Below, in pieces: positions 4,014 to 59,367 of a stretch of DNA of 64,000 bases. How positions within the stretch are numbered: the first letter of the stretch is position 1; every line of letters begins with the position of its first letter. The position numbers and the translations under genes were made by a program. Source of the stretch: Gammaproteobacteria bacterium (GTDB lineage: Bacteria; Pseudomonadota; Gammaproteobacteria; Pseudomonadales; Azotimanducaceae); NCBI GenBank assembly GCA_026706385.1, contig JAPOYV010000035.1, forward strand, positions 1 to 64,000. The letters run 5' to 3'. Under the pieces are notes generated by a model. It saw only the letters and a list, made by a program, of their open reading frames with translations, was not told where the DNA came from and ran no database searches.

Positions 4014-5117
4014 ATGCTGCAGATGCAATCCACGGTGACCGCCGATGGGCACGTCGAACTGGCCATCGCGGACGTCCCCGAGCCATCGCCACGGTCGGAC
4101 CAGGTGCTGATTCGGGTCGAAGCGGCACCGATCAATCCATCCGACCTGGGACTGCTCTTCAGCGGCGCCGACATGACCACCGCGCAAGCGATCGATGCGG
4201 GTGTCCGCGCTGAAATCCCTCCGGAGGCCATGGCCATGATGGGTCCACGGGTGGGGCAGTCCATGCCGTGCGGGAACGAAGGCGCGGGCGTGGTCGTCGC
4301 TGCGGGAGACGATCCGGCTGCGCAGGCGCTCGTCGGCAAGACGGTCGCCACCTTGGGTGGCTCGATGTACTCCCAGCTCAAGGTTGCAAGGGTGGAACAG
4401 TGCCTCGTCCTGCACGAAGGCACGACGCCCGCTGAGGGCGCATCGTGCTTCGTCAATCCGCTGACCGTGCTCGGCATGATCGGCACGATGCGCATGGAAG
4501 GCCACACGGCGCTGGCGCACACCGCCGCCGCGTCCAACCTAGGCCAGATGTTGCAGAAGGTCTGTACGAACGAGGGCATCCCCCTGGTCAACATCGTCCG
4601 GCGCGAGGAGCACGTCGACCTGCTCCGCGGCATCGGTGCTACGCATGTCGTCAACTCGAGCGCCGACTCGTTCGCCGACGACCTGACCGCCGCGCTCAAG
4701 GACACCGGCGCCACCCTGGCGTTCGACGCCACCGGCGGCGGTCGCCTGGCGGGCCAGTTGCTCGCGTCCATGGAGGCGGCGTTGGCGGGCGCCGGTGCCG
4801 CCGGCAACCGCTACGGCACCGCCACGCACAAGCAGGTCTACATCTACGGTGGCCTCGAACGCGGCCCGACGGTCCTCGATCGCGCCTTCGGCATGGCGTG
4901 GGGCCTCGGTGGATGGCTGCTGCCGATCTTCCTGGATCGCGTCGGCCCCGAGGAGAGCGAGAAGCTGCGCCAGCGGGTGGCCGACGAGATCAAGACGACG
5001 TTCGCGAGCAGTTACTCCAAGGTCGTGTCGCTGAAGGAGGCCACGTCGCTAGAGGCTGTCGCTGACTACGGCCGAATGGCGACGGGCGAGAAGTACTTGA
5101 TCAATCCGCAGTTGTAA
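4014..5117 (+). CDS. Medium-chain dehydrogenase/quinone-oxidoreductase-like protein
   Basis: A 367-residue MDR-superfamily protein. The N-terminal GroES-like domain carries DQVLIRVEAAPINPSDLG, followed by GNEGAGVVVAAG near residue 85. The Rossmann domain begins around residue 165 with AHTAAASNLGQM in place of the usual AxGxxG, followed by VVNSSAD and AFDATGGG. Catalytic-zinc cysteine/histidine signatures are not apparent, which favours an NADPH:quinone or enoyl reductase type over zinc alcohol dehydrogenase. It begins 13 bases after the SDR stop and is the last gene of the operon; tRNA-Ser follows 178 bases downstream. Confidence 0.82.
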   Translation: MLQMQSTVTADGHVELAIADVPEPSPRSDQVLIRVEAAPINPSDLGLLFSGADMTTAQAIDAGVRAEIPPEAMAMMGPRVGQSMPCGNEGAGVVVAAGDDPAAQALVGKTVATLGGSMYSQLKVARVEQCLVLHEGTTPAEGASCFVNPLTVLGMIGTMRMEGHTALAHTAAASNLGQMLQKVCTNEGIPLVNIVRREEHVDLLRGIGATHVVNSSADSFADDLTAALKDTGATLAFDATGGGRLAGQLLASMEAALAGAGAAGNRYGTATHKQVYIYGGLERGPTVLDRAFGMAWGLGGWLLPIFLDRVGPEESEKLRQRVADEIKTTFASSYSKVVSLKEATSLEAVADYGRMATGEKYLINPQL

Positions 5118-6039: not shown

Positions 6040-6325
6040 GGCGCGAACACGATCAAGATCAAGGGGACGGCTGAGGACACCGTCACAGCCATCTACGCCG
6101 CCACCTGGAAGAACGGCGGCGAGTCTGCGGACCAGTGGGGCGTCAGCCTGCGCGACTACGTCCTGCCGATCCTCGGCGCCAAACGCGTCAACGCCGTAGC
6201 CACCGCGGACGTCATGCGCGTCCTGCTGCCGATCTGGCCAACAGGCGCGAGACCGCCGCCGTGTCGGGCAACGCATCGGCGCCGTCTGCAAGTGGGCGAT
6301 CGCCCAGGGCATCCGGGGCGGTTGC
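6040..6325 (+). pseudogene. Tyrosine-type phage integrase, N-terminal/core-binding remnant
   Basis: Three frames in succession encode pieces of one integrase. The first (to about 6240) reads AATWKNGGESADQWGVSL and DYVLPILGAKRVNAVATAD, typical of the SAM-like core-binding domain. A second frame supplies RRETAA, and a third, from 6272, IGAVCKWAIAQGIRG. The catalytic domain with the R-H-R-Y residues is absent. At least two frameshifts plus the C-terminal loss make this a dead gene. It follows tRNA-Ser, the usual target of such enzymes, and precedes a ParB-like gene, consistent with a decayed integrative element. Confidence 0.75.
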
Positions 6326-51825: not shown

Positions 51826-52478
51826 AAGAACCGGCGGAACGTCGGGACACCTAAAGATGATCTTTAATTCTATATAAATCAGTAAGTTAATTTAAAATAT
51901 TGCACCGTTGAGAGGCCCGGGGAGCCAAGGGGCGGCTGCCACTCCGCCACCTAACCCCTGTTCACCGATGGAGCAGGGCCGACAGGCTGTGTTCCCGGGA
52001 TGCGCCCCGCCGCCTTAATGCCGCGGTCCTGGGCGGCCGATCAGCCCTTTCCGGCGTCCATCGATCGTGGATGCGCGACCTCGGCTGGCTGTCGCGCATG
52101 GGCCTCGAGTTCGCGCACTCGCGCCTGCAAATCTGGAACGCCGACTCGACTGGCCTCCATCGACTGCTCAACGACACGTAGGCGTGCATCGAGCCCGGCG
52201 ATCTGCGCGCCGAGTTCCCTGCGTACGTCCTCGATCCGAGCGGTCAGTTCCGTGCGCACACTCTCGATCCGAACGGTCAGTTCGGTGCGCAGGCCGTTCA
52301 TCTCGGCCCTCAGCCCTGAAGTGGACGCGAGGATCATCGCGCCGATGCCAACGCCGACCGTGAGCACCGTGCCGATGATCGCGATGGGACCTTTGTACTT
52401 GACTAGACCATAGGTCATTTCACCCTGTCTTTACCCGTCCAAAGCCTGTAAACCACAGTTGGCTGGCGGGAGTGCCTC

Positions 52479-52573
52479 TGGCGGGAGCAGCAGGATTCGA
52501 ACCTGCGGCCCGAGGTGTTGTCTCGGACGCCAGAGCCTAAATCTGGTGCAATAGACCGCTCTGCCATGCTCCC
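52479..52573 (-). tRNA. tRNA-Leu(UAG) carried on the transposon
   Basis: Folds by eye into a complete class II tRNA. The acceptor is GGGAGCA/TGCTCCC (7 perfect pairs) with discriminator G and an encoded CCA. The anticodon arm is CCAGA-TTTAGGC-TCTGG, giving UAG (reads CUA leucine codons). The variable stem is CCGAG/CTCGG, and the T-arm is GCAGG-TTCGAAT-CCTGC. Bacterial leucine tRNAs normally have A73; G73 is unusual and more typical of serine. It lies 70 bases inside the left transposon end. Confidence 0.88.
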
Positions 52574-52876
52574 GCCAGCCCTTTACAGTTCCACCTCGGA
52601 TTTCTAGCCGAACCCTTAGACCGTGTTGTCCTAAGGTTAGAACCGGGTGAATCACGTTGACTTTCACGACCGCCTTGTGTAGACGCTGCCGCTAGCAAAG
52701 CGGTTCATCGGTATGCCCGTTGTCGGGCTAGCCGCTGAATACCACAGCCATACTCGGCCCGAGGGAGTCATGACCCAAGGGTAGGCGAATAGGCGGCAAA
52801 CCCTCATCGTACTGGTGAGCCGTTTTGCATGGCCCGGCACTACTCGTGCCGCCAAAGTGCAAAACGGAGATACACC
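52574..52876. other. Non-coding stretch inside the transposon
   Basis: About 300 bases between the tRNA and the first cargo protein gene, transcribed divergently. A CGGAGATACACC ribosome site precedes the ATG at 52877. No open frame with start signals was found; promoters for the tRNA (minus) and the cargo genes (plus) are expected here but were not resolved. Confidence 0.4.
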
Positions 52877-53437
52877 ATGACCAAGATCCCCTTAGGGTGC
52901 TTAGCCCTATCCGTTGCCTTGGTCTTGCCTATCTACGGGCAGACCATCCCAAAGGAACCACCGCCGCCTATCCCGGATTACGAATACGGGCTGCACGTGT
53001 TCGTCGTGATGGAGATAGGGCGGAAGTACCGCCATACCCATGACAACGCACGTCCTGTATCAAGAGAGGACAGGCAAAGAATGGCCGCGTTGGCTTCCGC
53101 CCTTGCGCTTTGCGCGAGCAAACATAGCGCGATACGAAAACAAGCGCTCGTCATACCGAGCCGCAAGTGGGGTCTAGCCGTAGAGTTGGCGAGTGTCCCT
53201 GATGGCGGAGCTAACAAAGGCCAGCAGCGGGCCATCCAGCTAGCCCGGGAGAGGTTGCAGGACAGTCAGAGCTTGTTCCAAGACACGATCCGCAAGTGGC
53301 GATCAGTCAAGAACCAGTGCGTCCGGGACACCAACGAGATGGAACAACTCGTGACGTTCGCCTACTCGGACTACCAGCGGCGGTACAACGAGCTATGGGC
53401 GTATCGAATGAAGAGTGGCTACAGCGAGGGCTGGTAG
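52877..53437 (+). CDS. Transposon cargo: small exported protein, unknown function
   Basis: 186 residues. The N-terminus MTKIPLGCLALSVALVLPIY, then GQ, is a signal peptide with likely cleavage after YGQ. The mature part is helical and basic/charged (RQRMAALASALALCASKHSA, AIQLARERLQDSQSLFQDTI) with two or three Cys. ATG 52877 is set by CGGAGATACACC. It ends two bases before the JAMM protease gene, so they are likely co-transcribed. Family not recognised. Confidence 0.7.
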   Translation: MTKIPLGCLALSVALVLPIYGQTIPKEPPPPIPDYEYGLHVFVVMEIGRKYRHTHDNARPVSREDRQRMAALASALALCASKHSAIRKQALVIPSRKWGLAVELASVPDGGANKGQQRAIQLARERLQDSQSLFQDTIRKWRSVKNQCVRDTNEMEQLVTFAYSDYQRRYNELWAYRMKSGYSEGW

Positions 53438-53439
53438 GC

Positions 53440-54123
53440 ATGACACCATTCGACAAGGATGTGACGGTCCACGTTACGGACTCCGCTCTTATGCACCTGC
53501 TTCTGGCCGGAATGGAATCGTATCGAGCTAAACGTCATGGCGCGCTAGAAACCGGCGGCTTGTTGTGGGGCTTCATCAAAGACGAGACCGACAGCGAGAT
53601 GGATCACATTACGATCGAGCATGTCTCCACGGACACCTACGCCAAGCGCAAGCCGGACAGCGTAGCTCTCAGCGACCGGACGACCAGCGCCAAGCGAGAC
53701 GTGATTGAGCAACGCTGGCCGCACCTGTCCATGATCGGGGACTTTCACACTCACCCGTATACGAACTACACCGAAGCCGTGGACAACAAGGGTTGGGAGT
53801 TCTCGCGGGGCGATTTCGAGTGGTACGAGAACGGGCACACGGCGGAGTCCTGGGCGGGCCGTGTCGGGCTGGTCCTAGCGATAGCCGGACTCCAGCGCTA
53901 CCACAAGGACAACCACGCAACCACTCGGGTCCGATCCCGCTACGGCAACACGCTCCAATGGCAGCTAGGCCGTTACCGCTTTTGGTTGTCGGCGTATTCC
54001 GTCGATCCGTTGGAAGGGCGGCTAATCGTGTCTCCGCGGGGTGGTGCCAATCCGTCCCGGCGTTATGTCTACATCGACGTGCCGACAATCAACGGCACCG
54101 ATGCGTGGTTCACTTACGAGTGA
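53440..54123 (+). CDS. Transposon cargo: JAMM/MPN (Mov34) metalloprotease
   Basis: 227 residues with a complete JAMM zinc-metalloprotease motif. Glu37 lies in GALETGGLLWGF, the HxH pair His103/His105 in IGDFHTHPYTNY, and Ser122-xx-Asp125 in WEFSRGDFEWYE. JAMM enzymes hydrolyse isopeptide or peptide bonds next to ubiquitin-like tails, or process sulfur-carrier proteins. Bacterial members occur in ubiquitin-like antiviral operons and in cysteine/thiamine biosynthesis. No E1, E2 or ubiquitin-like gene is beside it, so the substrate is unknown. The ATG overlaps closely with the stop of the exported-protein gene. No secretion signal is present. Confidence 0.82.
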   Translation: MTPFDKDVTVHVTDSALMHLLLAGMESYRAKRHGALETGGLLWGFIKDETDSEMDHITIEHVSTDTYAKRKPDSVALSDRTTSAKRDVIEQRWPHLSMIGDFHTHPYTNYTEAVDNKGWEFSRGDFEWYENGHTAESWAGRVGLVLAIAGLQRYHKDNHATTRVRSRYGNTLQWQLGRYRFWLSAYSVDPLEGRLIVSPRGGANPSRRYVYIDVPTINGTDAWFTYE

Positions 54124-54263
54124 TAAGGTGAGGTGTGCAGGTTACGGTGTTCCCTAGCGGCATAGCCATGAAGAGTGAATACCAATGACCTTGAGCGTGA
54201 CGAGCACCGTACCCTGCACTTTCGGTTTACAGCATGGCAGATCGGAAAACTCTCGTGTGTCTA

Positions 54264-55283
54264 CTACCACTTGAGGGTCGCCGGTCGAACACGCCTCTTA
54301 GGTTGAACGAAACGCAACCCGGTCTTAACGACCACTGTCTCGGTCAGGTCTTGGTACATGAGGTGCTTCCCGATCAAGCCCGTCACCAAGTTCTGCATCA
54401 TGGTGAGGGCATCTAGACCTCGGGCATTGTGCCGTCCTTCAAACTCCTTGACGTATCGGTGAAGGTGCTTCTTGCTCAGCACATGGAAGGTCCCCTTGTG
54501 CGCTCTCTTGAGCGTGGACCAGAACGACTCGATGCCGTTGGTGTGGATCTTGCCCCGGACGTACTCGCCGACACTGTGGTTCACGGACTTCTGCTTGTGG
54601 GGTAGCTTCCCGTACACCCTTGCTCCATCCGAGTACACGGTCACGTCAGCATCAGTGAACTCGGATATGAAGGCGTCCAAAGTCTCGTAGTCGACGTTCT
54701 CGACAACCTTGGCCCGTACTTGTTTGGTGTTTCGGTCCTTCATGCCGACTACCGCGGTCTTGCCGACGGAGCCCCGGCCAGTGTTGCGTAGTTCCCATCG
54801 CTTGGCGTTAGACATGTTCTTGCGGAGTCCGCCGACATAGGTCTCGTCCACTTCGACTGGCCCCAGGAACTTGCCAACGCCAGTGTGATCCCACCCTTCG
54901 CGTAGGCGATGCAGCATGAACCAGGCGGTTTTGCCGGTGACGTCGATGTGTTGGGCCAACTCGGCGCTGCTGATGCTCTTGATCCGCGTAACGTAGATGT
55001 AGATAGCGACCGCCCACTTGTCCAAAGGCACGTGCGATCTCCGTAAGGCGGTGCCAGTTCGGACGCTGAAATACCCACGACAGTCCCGACACCAGTAGGG
55101 CATCGGTTTGCCGTTCGGAGTTTCCTTGGTGTTGATGCTGCCGCACTTGCCGCAAGCTCGAACATCGGGCCACAGGATCGACTCGAACCACTTGGTCGCC
55201 GCGTCCTCGTTCGGGAACATCCGGCCGAGTTCCATCATGTTGATCCGGCTTCTGGACTGGCCGGGTTTTGCTCTTGTAGTCAT
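54264..55283 (-). CDS. IS1595-family (ISXO2-like) transposase
   Basis: 339 residues. An N-terminal zinc ribbon (Cys44, Cys47, Cys65, Cys68: ACGKCGS and YWCRDCRGYF) is followed by a helix-turn-helix region (AELAQHIDVTGKTAWFMLHR). The ISXO2-like DDE domain has Asp146 in VEVDETYVGG, Asp219 in TVYSDGARVYG and the HTNGIESFWSTLKR motif (His247, Asn249, Glu252). The length is normal and no frameshift is seen, so the enzyme looks functional. It acts on the 24-bp terminal inverted repeats at 52386 and 57077. Confidence 0.95.
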   Translation of the reverse strand: MTTRAKPGQSRSRINMMELGRMFPNEDAATKWFESILWPDVRACGKCGSINTKETPNGKPMPYWCRDCRGYFSVRTGTALRRSHVPLDKWAVAIYIYVTRIKSISSAELAQHIDVTGKTAWFMLHRLREGWDHTGVGKFLGPVEVDETYVGGLRKNMSNAKRWELRNTGRGSVGKTAVVGMKDRNTKQVRAKVVENVDYETLDAFISEFTDADVTVYSDGARVYGKLPHKQKSVNHSVGEYVRGKIHTNGIESFWSTLKRAHKGTFHVLSKKHLHRYVKEFEGRHNARGLDALTMMQNLVTGLIGKHLMYQDLTETVVVKTGLRFVQPKRRVRPATLKW

Positions 55284-55346
55284 GGTTAACCTCCATGACT
55301 ACCACCATACCGAAGTTTACCCTAAATGTCAAGCAAAGTCATAGTC

Positions 55347-55661
55347 TTATGGATAATCATTTGCATTACGTTTAACGCGTTCCCACAAGGATGCCGGTAC
55401 GGTGAAACCCTTCTCTTCGAGTTCCGTGAGGCAGTCTATTGGCTCTAGCTCTTGCATTTCTGGCATTCTGTAGAGACCAGACCGAAGGATGTTTGTGGAC
55501 TGTGGGTCTACTTCTACGATCCAGATCAGCCCAGTTTGGCGTTCAGGTGGGACCCAACTCGGACAGTCGCCAGATCCATCTAGTATTCGACAGACTTCCT
55601 CTCGGAGAAGGCTTTGAGCTGTACTTTCCGCGATGGAAGGCTTGGGAATTTGCTCAGACAC
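55347..55661 (-). CDS. Transposon cargo: small protein of unknown function (conflicts with opposite frame)
   Basis: 104 residues: MSEQIPKPSIAESTAQSLLR, ILDGSGDCPSWVPPERQTGL, then IWIVEVDPQSTNILRSGLYR and a charged helical end. Composition is protein-like. The plus strand has a competing frame (core 55570-55852, RQIHLVFDRLPLGEGFELYF, PRWKAWEFAQTLLGSLREI) that also looks plausible. Only one may be real over the overlap 55570-55661, or both could be expressed with slightly different starts. No family recognised for either. Confidence 0.45.
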   Translation of the reverse strand: MSEQIPKPSIAESTAQSLLREEVCRILDGSGDCPSWVPPERQTGLIWIVEVDPQSTNILRSGLYRMPEMQELEPIDCLTELEEKGFTVPASLWERVKRNANDYP

Positions 55662-55852
55662 TGTTGGGCTCCTTGAGAGAGATCATGCCAGTAGTGAGTC
55701 TCGAAGGCTGCGACCAACACAACGAACAGGCATCGTTGGCCTTCAACGGCGAACAACTGACCGTATCCAGTCGTGGTTTACCCAACAGCGGATATTCATT
55801 CAGACTTGATGCGGATGTTGTTACGAGGTTAGCTCGCCTGCTAGTAGCGTGA
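55550..55852 (+). CDS. Transposon cargo: possible small protein on plus strand
   Basis: An open frame with internal GTG starts near 55550 encodes about 100 residues, containing SDSRQIHLVFDRLPLGEGFE, WKAWEFAQTLLGSLREIMPV and a C-terminal RLDADVVTRLARLLVA. The alternation of strands and helices is protein-like. No good ribosome site is evident and the start is not determined. It overlaps the beginning of the minus-strand gene at 55347-55661, so one of the two may be spurious. Confidence 0.4.
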   Translation, partial: GPNSDSRQIHLVFDRLPLGEGFELYFPRWKAWEFAQTLLGSLREIMPVVSLEGCDQHNEQASLAFNGEQLTVSSRGLPNSGYSFRLDADVVTRLARLLVA

Positions 55853-55856
55853 GCCT

Positions 55857-56045
55857 TCACTCGACAGGAATGGGCAGAGACTCTTCTAGCGCCTTCTGCT
55901 GTTGCTCAGCCTTCTTGCGGTCGGGCTTCCTAGTGCCAGTCTTCTTGCCGTCCGAGTCCTCGCCGGACCCGTCCGAGTCCATCACTTCGGCCAGGAGGCG
56001 TTGGGCAGTCTTGAGTTGTCTGCGAGTCAGCTTGATGGTTGGCAC
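55857..56045 (-). CDS. Transposon cargo: 62-residue basic/acidic small protein
   Basis: MPTIKLTRRQLKTAQRLLAE, then DSDGSGEDSDGKKTGTRKPD, then RKKAEQQQKALEESLPIPVE. A predicted helix, a disordered Asp/Ser/Gly/Lys linker and a second helix. No family recognised. The frame is closed and of reasonable composition, but at this size coding status is uncertain. Confidence 0.4.
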   Translation of the reverse strand: MPTIKLTRRQLKTAQRLLAEVMDSDGSGEDSDGKKTGTRKPDRKKAEQQQKALEESLPIPVE

Positions 56046-56156
56046 GGCGGCGTAGGTCCTCTATTGGTCTGCGTCACCACCAATTAGGTCGGCGCGGGGT
56101 CCGCAGGGAAGGTAAACTGCAACTGTCAAACAACACCAATCAGCTAGGGAACACCA

Positions 56157-56488
56157 ATGACAAAGACACTGACTGCACTCGCCCCACTGTGCTACTGGCT
56201 GGATGCGCTGCATCACCGGCTGCCGTCGCACCAGCCTTGGTTTCAGCCGAGCCCTACAGGGATTTGAAGTGTTCGACGCTGGCCGAAATGAAGGTGGCAA
56301 AGCAAGCCGATATCGACAAGCTCTATAAGTCGCAGAGCACAAAGCGGTGGGTGGACGGTGTCTCCAATGCTGTCATTCTGCCGGGCGTGGCTAGCATCTT
56401 CAAAGACTCGTCCAAGCCACTCGCGCAAGCGAAAGGTGAGATGCAAGCCATGATCCGGGAGTACGACAGGCGATGCTTGGATGATTAG
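56157..56488 (+). pseudogene. Transposon cargo: small lipoprotein, frameshifted in its signal peptide
   Basis: ATG 56157 follows CAGCTAGGGAACACC and starts MTKTLTALAP. A shift of frame within GCCCCACTG near 56180 is needed to continue TVLLAGCAASPAAVAPALVS, which contains a perfect lipobox LAGC. The rest, PYRDLKCSTLAEMKVAKQAD, IDKLYKSQSTKRWVDGVSNA and MQAMIREYDRRCLDD, is protein-like. With the shift a lipoprotein of about 110 residues results. In the frame as given, no start with a ribosome site precedes the lipobox. It overlaps the next gene by 8 bases. Confidence 0.6.
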
Positions 56489-56954
56489 CGAGTCACTACG
56501 GCATCTTGCGTTGCTGGCCATGTGCTGCTGTGCTGTAGGTGCCTTCGCTCACTCAGGAGGCACTGACAAGTATGGGTGCCACGCGGGCACGCAACCATAC
56601 CATTGTCACAATGGCGGTTCTGGCGTGGACGGGGAAACCGTCGGCATAGCTGCGGCTGCTATCGTAGGAGGATGGCTCGTCTACAAGGTCGCGAGGGCAG
56701 GCAAACGAGCCGTCAGCAAACGACCCTTTATGGGTACTAGGACGGTCGCCACCATCCCAACCAATACCAACGGCGGCACGGAGGCATTTGCTGACTTCGA
56801 CCTTAACGACAACGGGAAGATCAGTTGCCGTGAACTCCGCAAAGCCGGGGAGTCCACGCCAATCTACAAAACGCACCCGGCCTACCCGTACCTAAAGGAT
56901 CGGGACAATGACGGATGGGCTTGTGAGCCTTGGCTGCGGAAAGGTCCACAGTAG
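56481..56954 (+). CDS. Transposon cargo: exported YHYH/excalibur calcium-binding protein
   Basis: 157 residues. A signal peptide (LRHLALLAMCCCAVGAFAHS) is followed by AHSGGTDKYGCHAGTQPYHC, a histidine/cysteine-rich segment common in small exported proteins, and a hydrophobic helix (VGIAAAAIVGGWLVYKVA). An EF-hand-like loop DFDLNDNGKISCREL (~105-118) precedes a C-terminal excalibur domain, YLKDRDNDGWACEPW (DxDxDGxxCE). Such domains bind calcium outside the cell. It is translationally coupled to the preceding lipoprotein frame. Role on the transposon unknown. Confidence 0.75.
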   Translation: MISESLRHLALLAMCCCAVGAFAHSGGTDKYGCHAGTQPYHCHNGGSGVDGETVGIAAAAIVGGWLVYKVARAGKRAVSKRPFMGTRTVATIPTNTNGGTEAFADFDLNDNGKISCRELRKAGESTPIYKTHPAYPYLKDRDNDGWACEPWLRKGPQ

Positions 56955-57233
56955 CATCTTGCGTTGGCACACAAGACGCTCCCACTGGCCTCAAAGCGGT
57001 CGTAGGCGGGTTGTCAAGTCAACTACCATGCCAAAATCAGCCGAAGGGTTTAGGGTCTAGTCAAGTACAAGGGTCCCATCGCGATGGTCTGGCCGTCAAG
57101 CCATGCCGGCAACGTCCTCCCCACAGCTTGACTCGCTTCTTGCTGCATCTTTTGTACTCGATGCGCGCGATGATCCGTTGATCATACGGACAGCCGACCG
57201 TGATGTGAAGCGAGTTCGGGACTTTTTTTCTAG

Positions 57234-58896: not shown

Positions 58897-59367
58897 TCAC
58901 GGCAGTTCCGCGTTTCCCGCGTCGGGCGACGGTGGATGTGCGGCTTTCGCCGGCTGCCGCGCATGCGCCTCGAGTCCGCGTACGCGGGCCTGCAAGTCGG
59001 GAACGCCGCCCCGGGTGGCCTCCATCGACTGCTCCACGACGCGCACACGGGCATCGAGTCCCGCGATCTGTGCGCCGAGTTCCTTGCGCACGTCCTCGAT
59101 CTTGGCCGTCAGTTCCTTGCGCACGTCTTCGATCTTGGCTGTCAGTTCCTTGCGCGCGTCCTCGATCTTGGCTGTGAGCTCCCGATGCCCATCGTCGATC
59201 CTGGCGTGGAGGCGGTCCGTTTCGGCCCTCATGGCTGACGTGGACGCGAGAACCATCGCGCCGATGCCAATGCCGACGGTCAATACGGTGCCGATGATCG
59301 CGATGGTCTGGCCGTCGAGCCAGGTTGGCAGCGTCCTTCCTGCTGCTTGACTCGCTTCCTGCGACAT
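58897..59367 (-). CDS. Small single-pass membrane protein with 11-residue coiled-coil repeats
   Basis: 156 residues from ATG 59367: MSQEASQAAGRTLPTWLDGQ, one membrane segment IAIIGTVLTVGIGIGAMVLA, then a coiled coil of near-identical 11-residue units (RKELTAKIEDV x3) and a variable C-terminus ending DAGNAELP. An upstream in-frame ATG at 59556 would add 63 atypical residues and is rejected. It is the intact paralogue of the gene split by the transposon; the copies differ in repeat number. Function unknown; the fold resembles small cell-envelope or effector-scaffold proteins. Confidence 0.75.
   Translation of the reverse strand: MSQEASQAAGRTLPTWLDGQTIAIIGTVLTVGIGIGAMVLASTSAMRAETDRLHARIDDGHRELTAKIEDARKELTAKIEDVRKELTAKIEDVRKELGAQIAGLDARVRVVEQSMEATRGGVPDLQARVRGLEAHARQPAKAAHPPSPDAGNAELP
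59080..59211 (-). repeat. 33-bp coding tandem repeats (coiled coil)
   Basis: Four 33-bp units at 59080, 59113, 59146 and 59179; units 1-3 are nearly identical (TTCCTTGCGCACGTCCTCGA at the start of each) and unit 4 has diverged. Each encodes 11 residues of the coiled coil. The paralogue at 52.2 kb has fewer, more diverged units, so the number changes by unequal exchange. Confidence 0.8.

Follow-up and report, generated by a model that had tools for sequence, protein, structure and literature searches.

A serine-like tRNA with a leucine anticodon in an IS1595-family transposon, and recurrent identity-mismatched tRNAs in related elements

The locus described here raises the question of why a transposon should carry a tRNA gene whose body and anticodon point to different amino acids. 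The IS1595 family is known for passenger genes, and the window (the whole stretch of DNA analyzed, 64,000 nucleotides) holds a 4.69-kb passenger transposon of this family at positions 52386 to 57077. Its left terminal inverted repeat (52386 to 52409, plus strand) is the 24-bp GGGACCTTTGTACTTGACTAGACC, and its right repeat (57054 to 57077, minus strand, 24 bp) is the same sequence with one mismatch. With up to 3 mismatches allowed, these were the only two matches in the window (0.00 expected by chance over 100 shuffles), and the element's own 5.1-Mb genome likewise contained the sequence only at these two ends. An 8-bp target duplication, ATCGCGAT, lies at 52378 to 52385 and, as an exact copy, at 57078 to 57085; since it is a palindrome, the duplication also prolongs the inverted repeat. 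The element interrupts a host gene, of which the 3′ part lies at 52041 to 52377 (minus strand) and the 5′ part, on that same strand, past the right end of the element. About 2 kb from the element, a tandem paralog detected by tblastn (58912 to 59307, minus strand) is uninterrupted and offers a view of the empty site. Because the joined flanks and this paralog are identical across the target duplication, over LDGQTIAIIGTVLTVG, the insertion was precise. An IS1-type element is also present in this genome, at C84; its ends were looked for and not found.

The transposase (54264 to 55283, minus strand) is a complete open frame of 339 amino acids that matched the ISXO2-like/IS1595 profiles PF12762 (131 bits, 4.9e-38) and NF033547 (179.9 bits, 6.2e-53), both above cut-off. 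A possible N-terminal zinc ribbon (PF12760) scored 19.7 bits, under its cut-off of 25.4, and four cysteines are invariant in an alignment of 15 sequences. Upstream lies a promoter-like site, TTGACA-17-TATGGT (55304 to 55332, minus strand), a consensus match only, with one such match in the region versus a mean of 2.0 in shuffles. In its DDE transposase, inverted ends (here starting GGG), 8-bp target duplication, and passengers, the element resembles other IS1595-family passenger transposons; it differs from them in a recurrent tRNA passenger of mismatched identity. A preliminary description of this DNA, which had reported a precisely inserted IS1595-type transposon with 24-bp ends bearing one mismatch, an 8-bp duplication, and a complete transposase, was thus confirmed.

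That description had also called the cargo set unusual, which our analysis supports, and had listed a lipoprotein frame and a tRNA-Leu(UAG) within it. Both are present; the former appears broken and the latter is no ordinary tRNA-Leu. The lipoprotein-like gene (56157 to 56488, plus strand) looks broken because, as judged by eye, its start ATG (56157) and its lipobox are in different frames. It is followed by a gene encoding a protein with a C-terminal Excalibur calcium-binding domain (56481 to 56954, plus strand; PF05901, 37 bits, above cut-off) and a YHYH-like motif (28.9 bits, slightly below the cut-off of 30). A 186-amino-acid protein with an N terminus that looks signal-like by eye (52877 to 53437, plus strand) had no family match at a meaningful E value. 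Two small open reading frames (ORFs), of 104 amino acids (55347 to 55661, minus strand) and 62 amino acids (55857 to 56045, minus strand), have no assigned function; the first overlaps an ORF on the opposite strand (55439 to 55852, plus strand), and only one of this pair need be real.

The remaining cargo protein, a JAMM (Prok-JAB-like) protein of 227 amino acids (53440 to 54123, plus strand), had been proposed to form a functional unit with the secreted proteins, cooperating in defense or host interaction. Its Pfam Prok-JAB match is weak (18.7 bits, below the curated 25), and its profile matched no solved structure at an E value of 1. In favor of such a unit, the zinc site E … HxH … SxxD is complete, with E37, H103, H105, S122, and D125 invariant in a five-sequence alignment, and the best PADLOC match was to JAB proteins (1.8e-7). 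A PADLOC scan of eight element ORFs matched the JAMM protein alone, and E1, E2, and ubiquitin-like partners were not found. However, relatives of the JAMM protein (43 to 60% identity) occurred in 5 of the 293 other relatives' genomes, and the stretches around them, two of which are short contigs with partial surroundings (L285 and L286), contained no transposase, other cargo protein, or tRNA. Nor did the 140 sister transposase loci examined contain relatives of any of the window's cargo proteins (E value of 0.01). A search for the same ends and gene set elsewhere thus returned the ends only from this element within its own genome, and the JAMM relatives without their companions. Since relatives of the JAMM protein occur apart from the element, an outcome that the preliminary description had itself named as refuting, the association of the protein cargo with the element looks incidental. 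The JAMM-centered unit is not supported, and we regard it as highly improbable.

The tRNA gene (52479 to 52573, minus strand) presents a different picture. It encodes CCA, scores 56.2 bits in Rfam, and folds into a canonical 7/5 cloverleaf with U33 and a perfect anticodon stem. Its anticodon, UAG, reads the leucine codon CUA, as annotated previously; the anomaly in its identity had been overlooked. The long class II variable arm, Ser-type D-arm, and G73 are features of a serine tRNA: G73 occurs in each of the 13 native Ser tRNAs whose end could be read, whereas the 20 native Leu tRNAs from four genomes all have A73. With the anticodon loop masked, the nearest isotype was Ser (52.9), followed by Tyr (50.9), with Leu ranking 13th (33.5). 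Tyr bodies score only slightly lower than Ser bodies, so the probable serine identity depends in part on G73 and the D-arm. The host genome has its own tRNA-Leu(UAG) and four other Leu tRNAs. No relative of the window tRNA was found at 1e-6 in the 293 other relatives, plasmids yielded none, and three phage records gave partial matches alone (33% of the length, tRNA-Pro).

The same kind of disagreement recurs in other IS1595 elements. Our end finder returned ends for 79 of 139 real loci but for none of the 139 controls in which the downstream side had been reversed. Among 92 elements with mapped ends, 11, from three phyla, carry 14 tRNA genes, each found by both ARAGORN and Rfam, and 81 had no tRNA by both methods. 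Two candidates lacking Rfam confirmation (L240 and L256) were left out of this conservative set, and L245, with ends set by hand, is the only tRNA in it from a locus without automatic ends. The anticodon-masked nearest isotype agreed with the anticodon in none of the 14 element tRNAs, compared with 140 of 159 native tRNAs (a set that excludes the window's own two tRNAs and two window host tRNAs of unclear anticodon, L127 and L128) and all 8 flanking tRNAs. Against natives of comparably low score the contrast persisted (59 of 77 matched versus 0 of 14; P = 4e-8; in this comparison the 14 tRNAs are those called by ARAGORN, which include L240 instead of L245). Mismatches include Arg-like bodies with the Ser anticodon GCU, a Leu body with the Glu anticodon CUC, and Cys bodies with Ala anticodons. 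Some need no scoring at all, being mismatches of class: class I bodies bear Ser GCU in L041, L042, L043, and L052, and class II bodies bear Asn GUU in L050 and Glu CUC in L045. ARAGORN tRNAs were also denser inside elements (14 in 264 kb) than in flanks (8 in 696 kb; P = 4e-4). On the tree, carriage of tRNAs requires 10 changes, 8 of them forced by well-supported branches. These counts use default matches alone, since a lower threshold (ps90) gave 27 inside and 45 outside, mainly chance matches. Loci without automatic ends held 11 further tRNAs, 5 nearest their own isotype (L076, L109, L232, and two in L262) and 6 not (L063, L082, L239, L245, L246, and L256). One element, L094, is weak, with end repeats identical at 15 of 20 positions and a phylum absent among the reference genomes. 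A check for A20 in the D-loop was unspecific, being positive in native Ala and Val tRNAs too.

We considered whether captured host tRNA genes merely hitchhike and decay, the mismatches being random anticodon mutations in dispensable copies. Most elements have no tRNA, bodies are varied, and some copies are poor (37.3 bits for the first tRNA of L042 and 42 bits for L057), as decay would predict. Fresh captures, however, would be expected to match still, and none of the 14 does. The five GCU tRNAs, moreover, covary in their stems: 98.1% of cells are paired, and in 11 of 21 pairs both bases have changed (0 of 500 shuffles), compensated changes that argue against decay. So does the finding that GCU recurs with Arg-like class I bodies on two or more separate branches of the tree (L041 to L043 and L052). 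We regard simple decay as unlikely.

Alternatively, the tRNA fold may be kept for an effect on RNA or on synthetases, with decoding irrelevant or selected against and anticodons free to drift; candidate roles include processing of read-through transcripts, protection of ends, and a decoy for tRNA-cutting nucleases. Consistent with this, acceptor stems (98 of 98 pairs) and T stems (69 of 70) are intact and anticodon stems are worn (61 of 70, versus 788 of 795 in natives), as though several element tRNAs were under less constraint to decode. Anticodons vary between elements, and in three cases (the window, L045, and L052) the tRNA sits no more than 300 bp from an end of its element. ARAGORN favors good acceptor and T stems, however, so part of the stem contrast may be detection bias. 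Retention of U33 in 12 of 14 element tRNAs, of GCU in three sister elements with bodies only 66 to 77% identical, and of a perfect anticodon arm in the window tRNA also speaks against this alternative. A nondecoding role seems to us possible, if rather improbable.

A third explanation would have a leucine-charged tRNA aid the translation of CUA-rich element genes in a GC-rich host. Of the 76 Leu codons in five element ORFs, 16 are CUA; in eight long window ORFs outside the element, picked by eye as putative genes, the figure is 25 of 540. Yet in CUA use the window transposase is only 21st among 134, the host possesses its own tRNA-Leu(UAG), G73 and the Ser-type body speak against recognition by LeuRS, and the tRNAs of other elements mismatch their anticodons as well. 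The candidate was rejected, and we consider such supplementation very unlikely. Recoding of the element's own genes was not supported either: at conserved transposase columns in 12 elements (few columns being usable in some, and L245 being mixed), codons read by element tRNAs mostly encode the standard residue and hardly ever that of the tRNA body.

The reading we prefer, which we hold with roughly even confidence and on sequence evidence, is that IS1595-family transposons recurrently mobilize identity-mismatched tRNAs that could in principle mistranslate one codon. Within a widespread set of passenger transposons, some would have acquired tRNA genes with disagreeing body and anticodon. The window tRNA, if expressed and charged with serine, would compete with the host tRNA-Leu(UAG) for CUA codons, a small proportion of which would then receive serine, perhaps to some benefit, so that the transposon would spread low-level, codon-specific mistranslation; the JAMM and remaining protein genes would be separate passengers. 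More tentatively, dual-identity tRNAs may be functional cargo of a class of transposons in several bacterial phyla, which would pass programmed, codon-specific mistranslation from host to host: Ser at Leu CUA in the present element and Arg at Ser AGY in several of its sisters.

Known systems offer partial parallels. The tRNA-ProX of Streptomyces and Kitasatospora (PMC10365949, PMC11415595) are dual-identity tRNAs, with the body of one isotype and the anticodon of another, for which mistranslation was demonstrated. Unlike these Pro bodies, which accompany a ProRS variant, the element tRNAs have Ser-, Leu-, Arg-, and Cys-like bodies inside transposons; the window tRNA is Ser-like, and profile scans recognized no tRNA synthetase among its element's ORFs. 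Allo-tRNAs, as described in PMC7609411, similarly combine a suggested Ser identity with mostly non-Ser anticodons; their acceptor domains are 8/4 or 9/3, in contrast to 7/5 here. The Candida CUG tRNA (PMC10365949) is likewise a single tRNA through which a Leu codon is read as serine; it is fungal and reads CUG, whereas the window tRNA is bacterial and transposon borne and has an anticodon for CUA. Phage tRNA genes also lie on mobile DNA, and two IMG/VR contigs have a Ser-like tRNA with UAG according to ARAGORN, but no IS1595 link was seen. A full-text literature search returned no title or abstract describing a recurrent identity-mismatched tRNA passenger of IS1595 transposons.

The bacterial dual-identity tRNAs that we found described are a single Pro family from two genera of actinomycetes (PMC10365949, PMC11415595) and allo-tRNAs (PMC7609411). 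Should many other kinds prove to be carried by transposons, ambiguity in the genetic code would become a trait that is mobile and spreads horizontally, and annotation by anticodon, here as "tRNA-Leu," would conceal such tRNAs. The resulting prediction is simple and can be tested, involving a single codon, a single replacement amino acid, and a single small gene.

The window element, an IS1595-family transposon with passenger genes (52386-57077), has 24-bp ends that differ at one position, carries ATCGCGAT on either flank, and encodes a complete IS1595-family transposase; the element and its ends are almost certainly real. The gene that it hit has an uninterrupted tandem paralogue within the window, and since this paralogue is identical to the joined flanks across LDGQTIAIIGTVLTVG, spanning the target duplication, the insertion was precise. 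The precise insertion, near-perfect ends, and complete transposase put forward in the preliminary description are confirmed. The leftover frame of the interrupted gene (52041-52418) opens just inside the element and runs through the left inverted repeat, where a start is possible. Each of the two ends was found once in the 5.1-Mb host genome (≤3 mismatches), and remaining transposase matches there were ≤45% identical, except for an 81-residue stretch at 58%. Two further IS1595 elements in the host genome (L260, 3867-6721; L261, 3788-6492) have perfect ends and exact target duplications, and no tRNA was detected in them. OY282460.1 ("uncultured Pseudomonadales bacterium") shares an identical transposase with genome G013 (contig C1), which belongs to the same genus; the element's host is probably a gammaproteobacterium.

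The proposal that the JAMM protease and secreted proteins form a functional unit found no support. The JAMM protein retains its zinc-site residues, and a search of 293 other relatives revealed proteins 43 to 60% identical to it in 5. The five stretches around them were without an IS1595-family transposase, other cargo homologues, or a tRNA, although the view is limited for two of them, which come from short contigs of which 6.9 and 3.9 kb were fetched. Since the window element's cargo proteins also had no match at an E value of 0.01 among 140 sister transposase loci, the protein set is, as far as seen, not a conserved unit. In our reading, the lipoprotein frame looks broken, with start and lipobox in different frames.

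A transposase scan returned 357 relatives, and the analysis retained the 80 best. Matches at 1e-60 or better occurred in 37 of 294 genomes (the window's own included), with 87 places listed; 60 of the 86 non-window places were taken, and the rest, chiefly weaker or broken, were omitted. Once 2 duplicates were dropped, 139 loci remained, including the window. Ends and target duplication were set automatically in 79 of these, compared with 0/139 in a control with the downstream side reversed. Adding L041, nine loci with good end repeats but without an intact duplication, and three with ends placed by hand (L059, L245, and L256) gave 92 mapped elements, 80 with target duplication, at a median length of 2.8 kb.

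Among 89 elements with mapped ends (264 kb), ARAGORN at default settings detected 14 tRNAs, located in 11 of the elements, versus 8 in the flanks (696 kb; P = 4e-4). L245 and L256, mapped at a later stage, contribute one further tRNA each. Rfam support as an added condition removes L240 and L256, leaving 14 tRNAs in 11 of the 92 elements: one each in the window element, L043, L045, L050, L052, L057, L094, and L245 and two each in L041, L042, and L066. As judged by record title or kinship, most of the hosts belong to the Alphaproteobacteria or to the same family as the window, and Chloroflexota and Bacteroidota account for one host each. Further tRNAs that look mismatched lie in IS1595 transposase loci whose ends could not be set: an Arg-like body with GCU (L239, 5865-5939, oriented), a class II body with Ala UGC (L246, 527-622, oriented), and a Trp CCA tRNA with a body of unclear isotype (L063, 7268-7340, oriented).

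We asked which native isotype each tRNA most resembles once the anticodon loop is cut out. Native references were drawn from the window's host and from the three genomes that harbor L043, L066, and L050. Excluded from this set were all element tRNAs, the two tRNAs of the window, and two more from its host whose anticodon is unclear; natives were scored leaving out one genome at a time. The correct isotype was given to 140/159 natives (35/37 class II) and to 8/8 flank tRNAs, while none of the 14 element tRNAs, in the ARAGORN or the Rfam-supported set, was nearest to the isotype of its own anticodon. An earlier two-genome run placed 32/37 and 32/43 natives correctly. Because element tRNAs are more divergent, they were also set against natives whose best scores were comparably low, and the difference persisted (59/77 versus 0/14 correct; P = 4e-8). 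Several assignments are ambiguous: the window tRNA (Ser 52.9 versus Tyr 50.9), the second tRNAs of L041 (Asp 73.8 versus Arg 70.0) and L066 (Met 74.5 versus Arg 68.0), L050 (top score Asp although class II with G73), and L094 (weak). Among tRNAs in loci without automatic ends, the body matched the anticodon in 5/11 and mismatched it in 6/11. The body is of class I in four GCU (Ser) tRNAs of mapped elements, whereas native Ser tRNAs are class II in 14/14 cases, a class mismatch that does not depend on scoring. We consider it very likely that the mismatch between body and anticodon is real.

On a tree of 91 transposases (13 tRNA-bearing rows, with L240 and L256 still among them), tRNA carriage requires 10 changes, 8 of them forced by well-supported branches, which implies repeated gain or loss of tRNAs. 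Shuffled labels gave a mean of 12.5 changes and as few as 10 in only 4/500 shuffles, and carriage is therefore somewhat clustered. The window's group (support 85/79) has tRNAs in 5/7 elements; a permissive Rfam scan detected none inside its tRNA-free pair, L040 and L217, either. L041 to L043 form one group (support 94/72) in which GCU is retained in tRNAs 66 to 77% identical. Both L041 and L042 have a tandem arrangement in which a tRNA nearest to Cys precedes a class I GCU tRNA. Across five Arg-like GCU tRNAs (L041, L042, L043, L052, and L239, the last with ends not set), pairing is kept in 98.1% of stem cells, and both sides changed in 11/21 pairs, with 0/500 shuffles as high, an excess inflated by the choice of sequences for their fold. 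Alternatively, element tRNAs may serve a non-decoding role, given that their anticodon stems are less perfect (61/70 paired versus 788/795 in natives) while acceptor and T stems are intact. However, since ARAGORN favors intact acceptor and T stems, detection bias may explain part of this contrast.

In the window's own genome (L172, contig C84), an IS1-family transposase (PF03400; 4566-5420) lies between two odd tRNAs (4368-4464 and 6067-6144). As drawn by ARAGORN, one combines a long variable arm with an anticodon loop of 8 nt, and the other is of class I with a 6-nt loop; element ends sought around this transposase were not found. Contig C2 of the same genome carries a tRNA-Pro with anticodon AGG (L173, 4596-4670), but Pro is not the nearest isotype for its body. 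Two viral IMG/VR contigs encode a Ser-like tRNA read as UAG by ARAGORN (L287, 1681-1770; L288, 5835-5924), and the best phage matches to the former (78.5% identity) are annotated tRNA-Ser.

Dual-identity tRNAs (tRNA-ProX) and allo-tRNAs are already known, and an allo-tRNA pseudogene linked to a transposon-related ORF has been described (PMC7609411, PMC10365949, PMC11415595). Among the titles and abstracts listed by full-text searches, which cover few subscription papers, none dealt with IS1595 tRNA genes or transposon-borne mismatched tRNAs; this is weak evidence of absence.

The window tRNA (52479-52573, minus strand) is a 95-nt 7/5 cloverleaf with encoded CCA, a perfect anticodon stem, and the anticodon loop UUUAGGC, including U33. 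At 52461-52489 and 52567-52580, its acceptor stem is prolonged outwards by 12-bp inverted repeats, and a 10-bp direct repeat copies the 3' end of the tRNA. Described initially as tRNA-Leu(UAG), it keeps that anticodon, but Ser is its nearest body isotype and it has G73, as do 13/13 readable native Ser tRNAs, native Leu tRNAs having A73 in 20/20. By our own reading, its D-arm (GGCAGAGCGGUCUAUUGC) also appears closer to native Ser than to the Leu pattern with GGUAGAC/GGCAGAC. A normal Leu(UAG) tRNA is already present in the host. According to PMC7609411, SerRS recognizes the long arm and G73 and does not use the anticodon. On our preferred reading, which has about an even chance of being right, the window tRNA would be charged with serine and would occasionally insert Ser for Leu at CUA. 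The element's own genes do not appear to require altered codon reading. That mistranslation by element tRNAs is itself selected is a more tentative proposition, and we lean against it.
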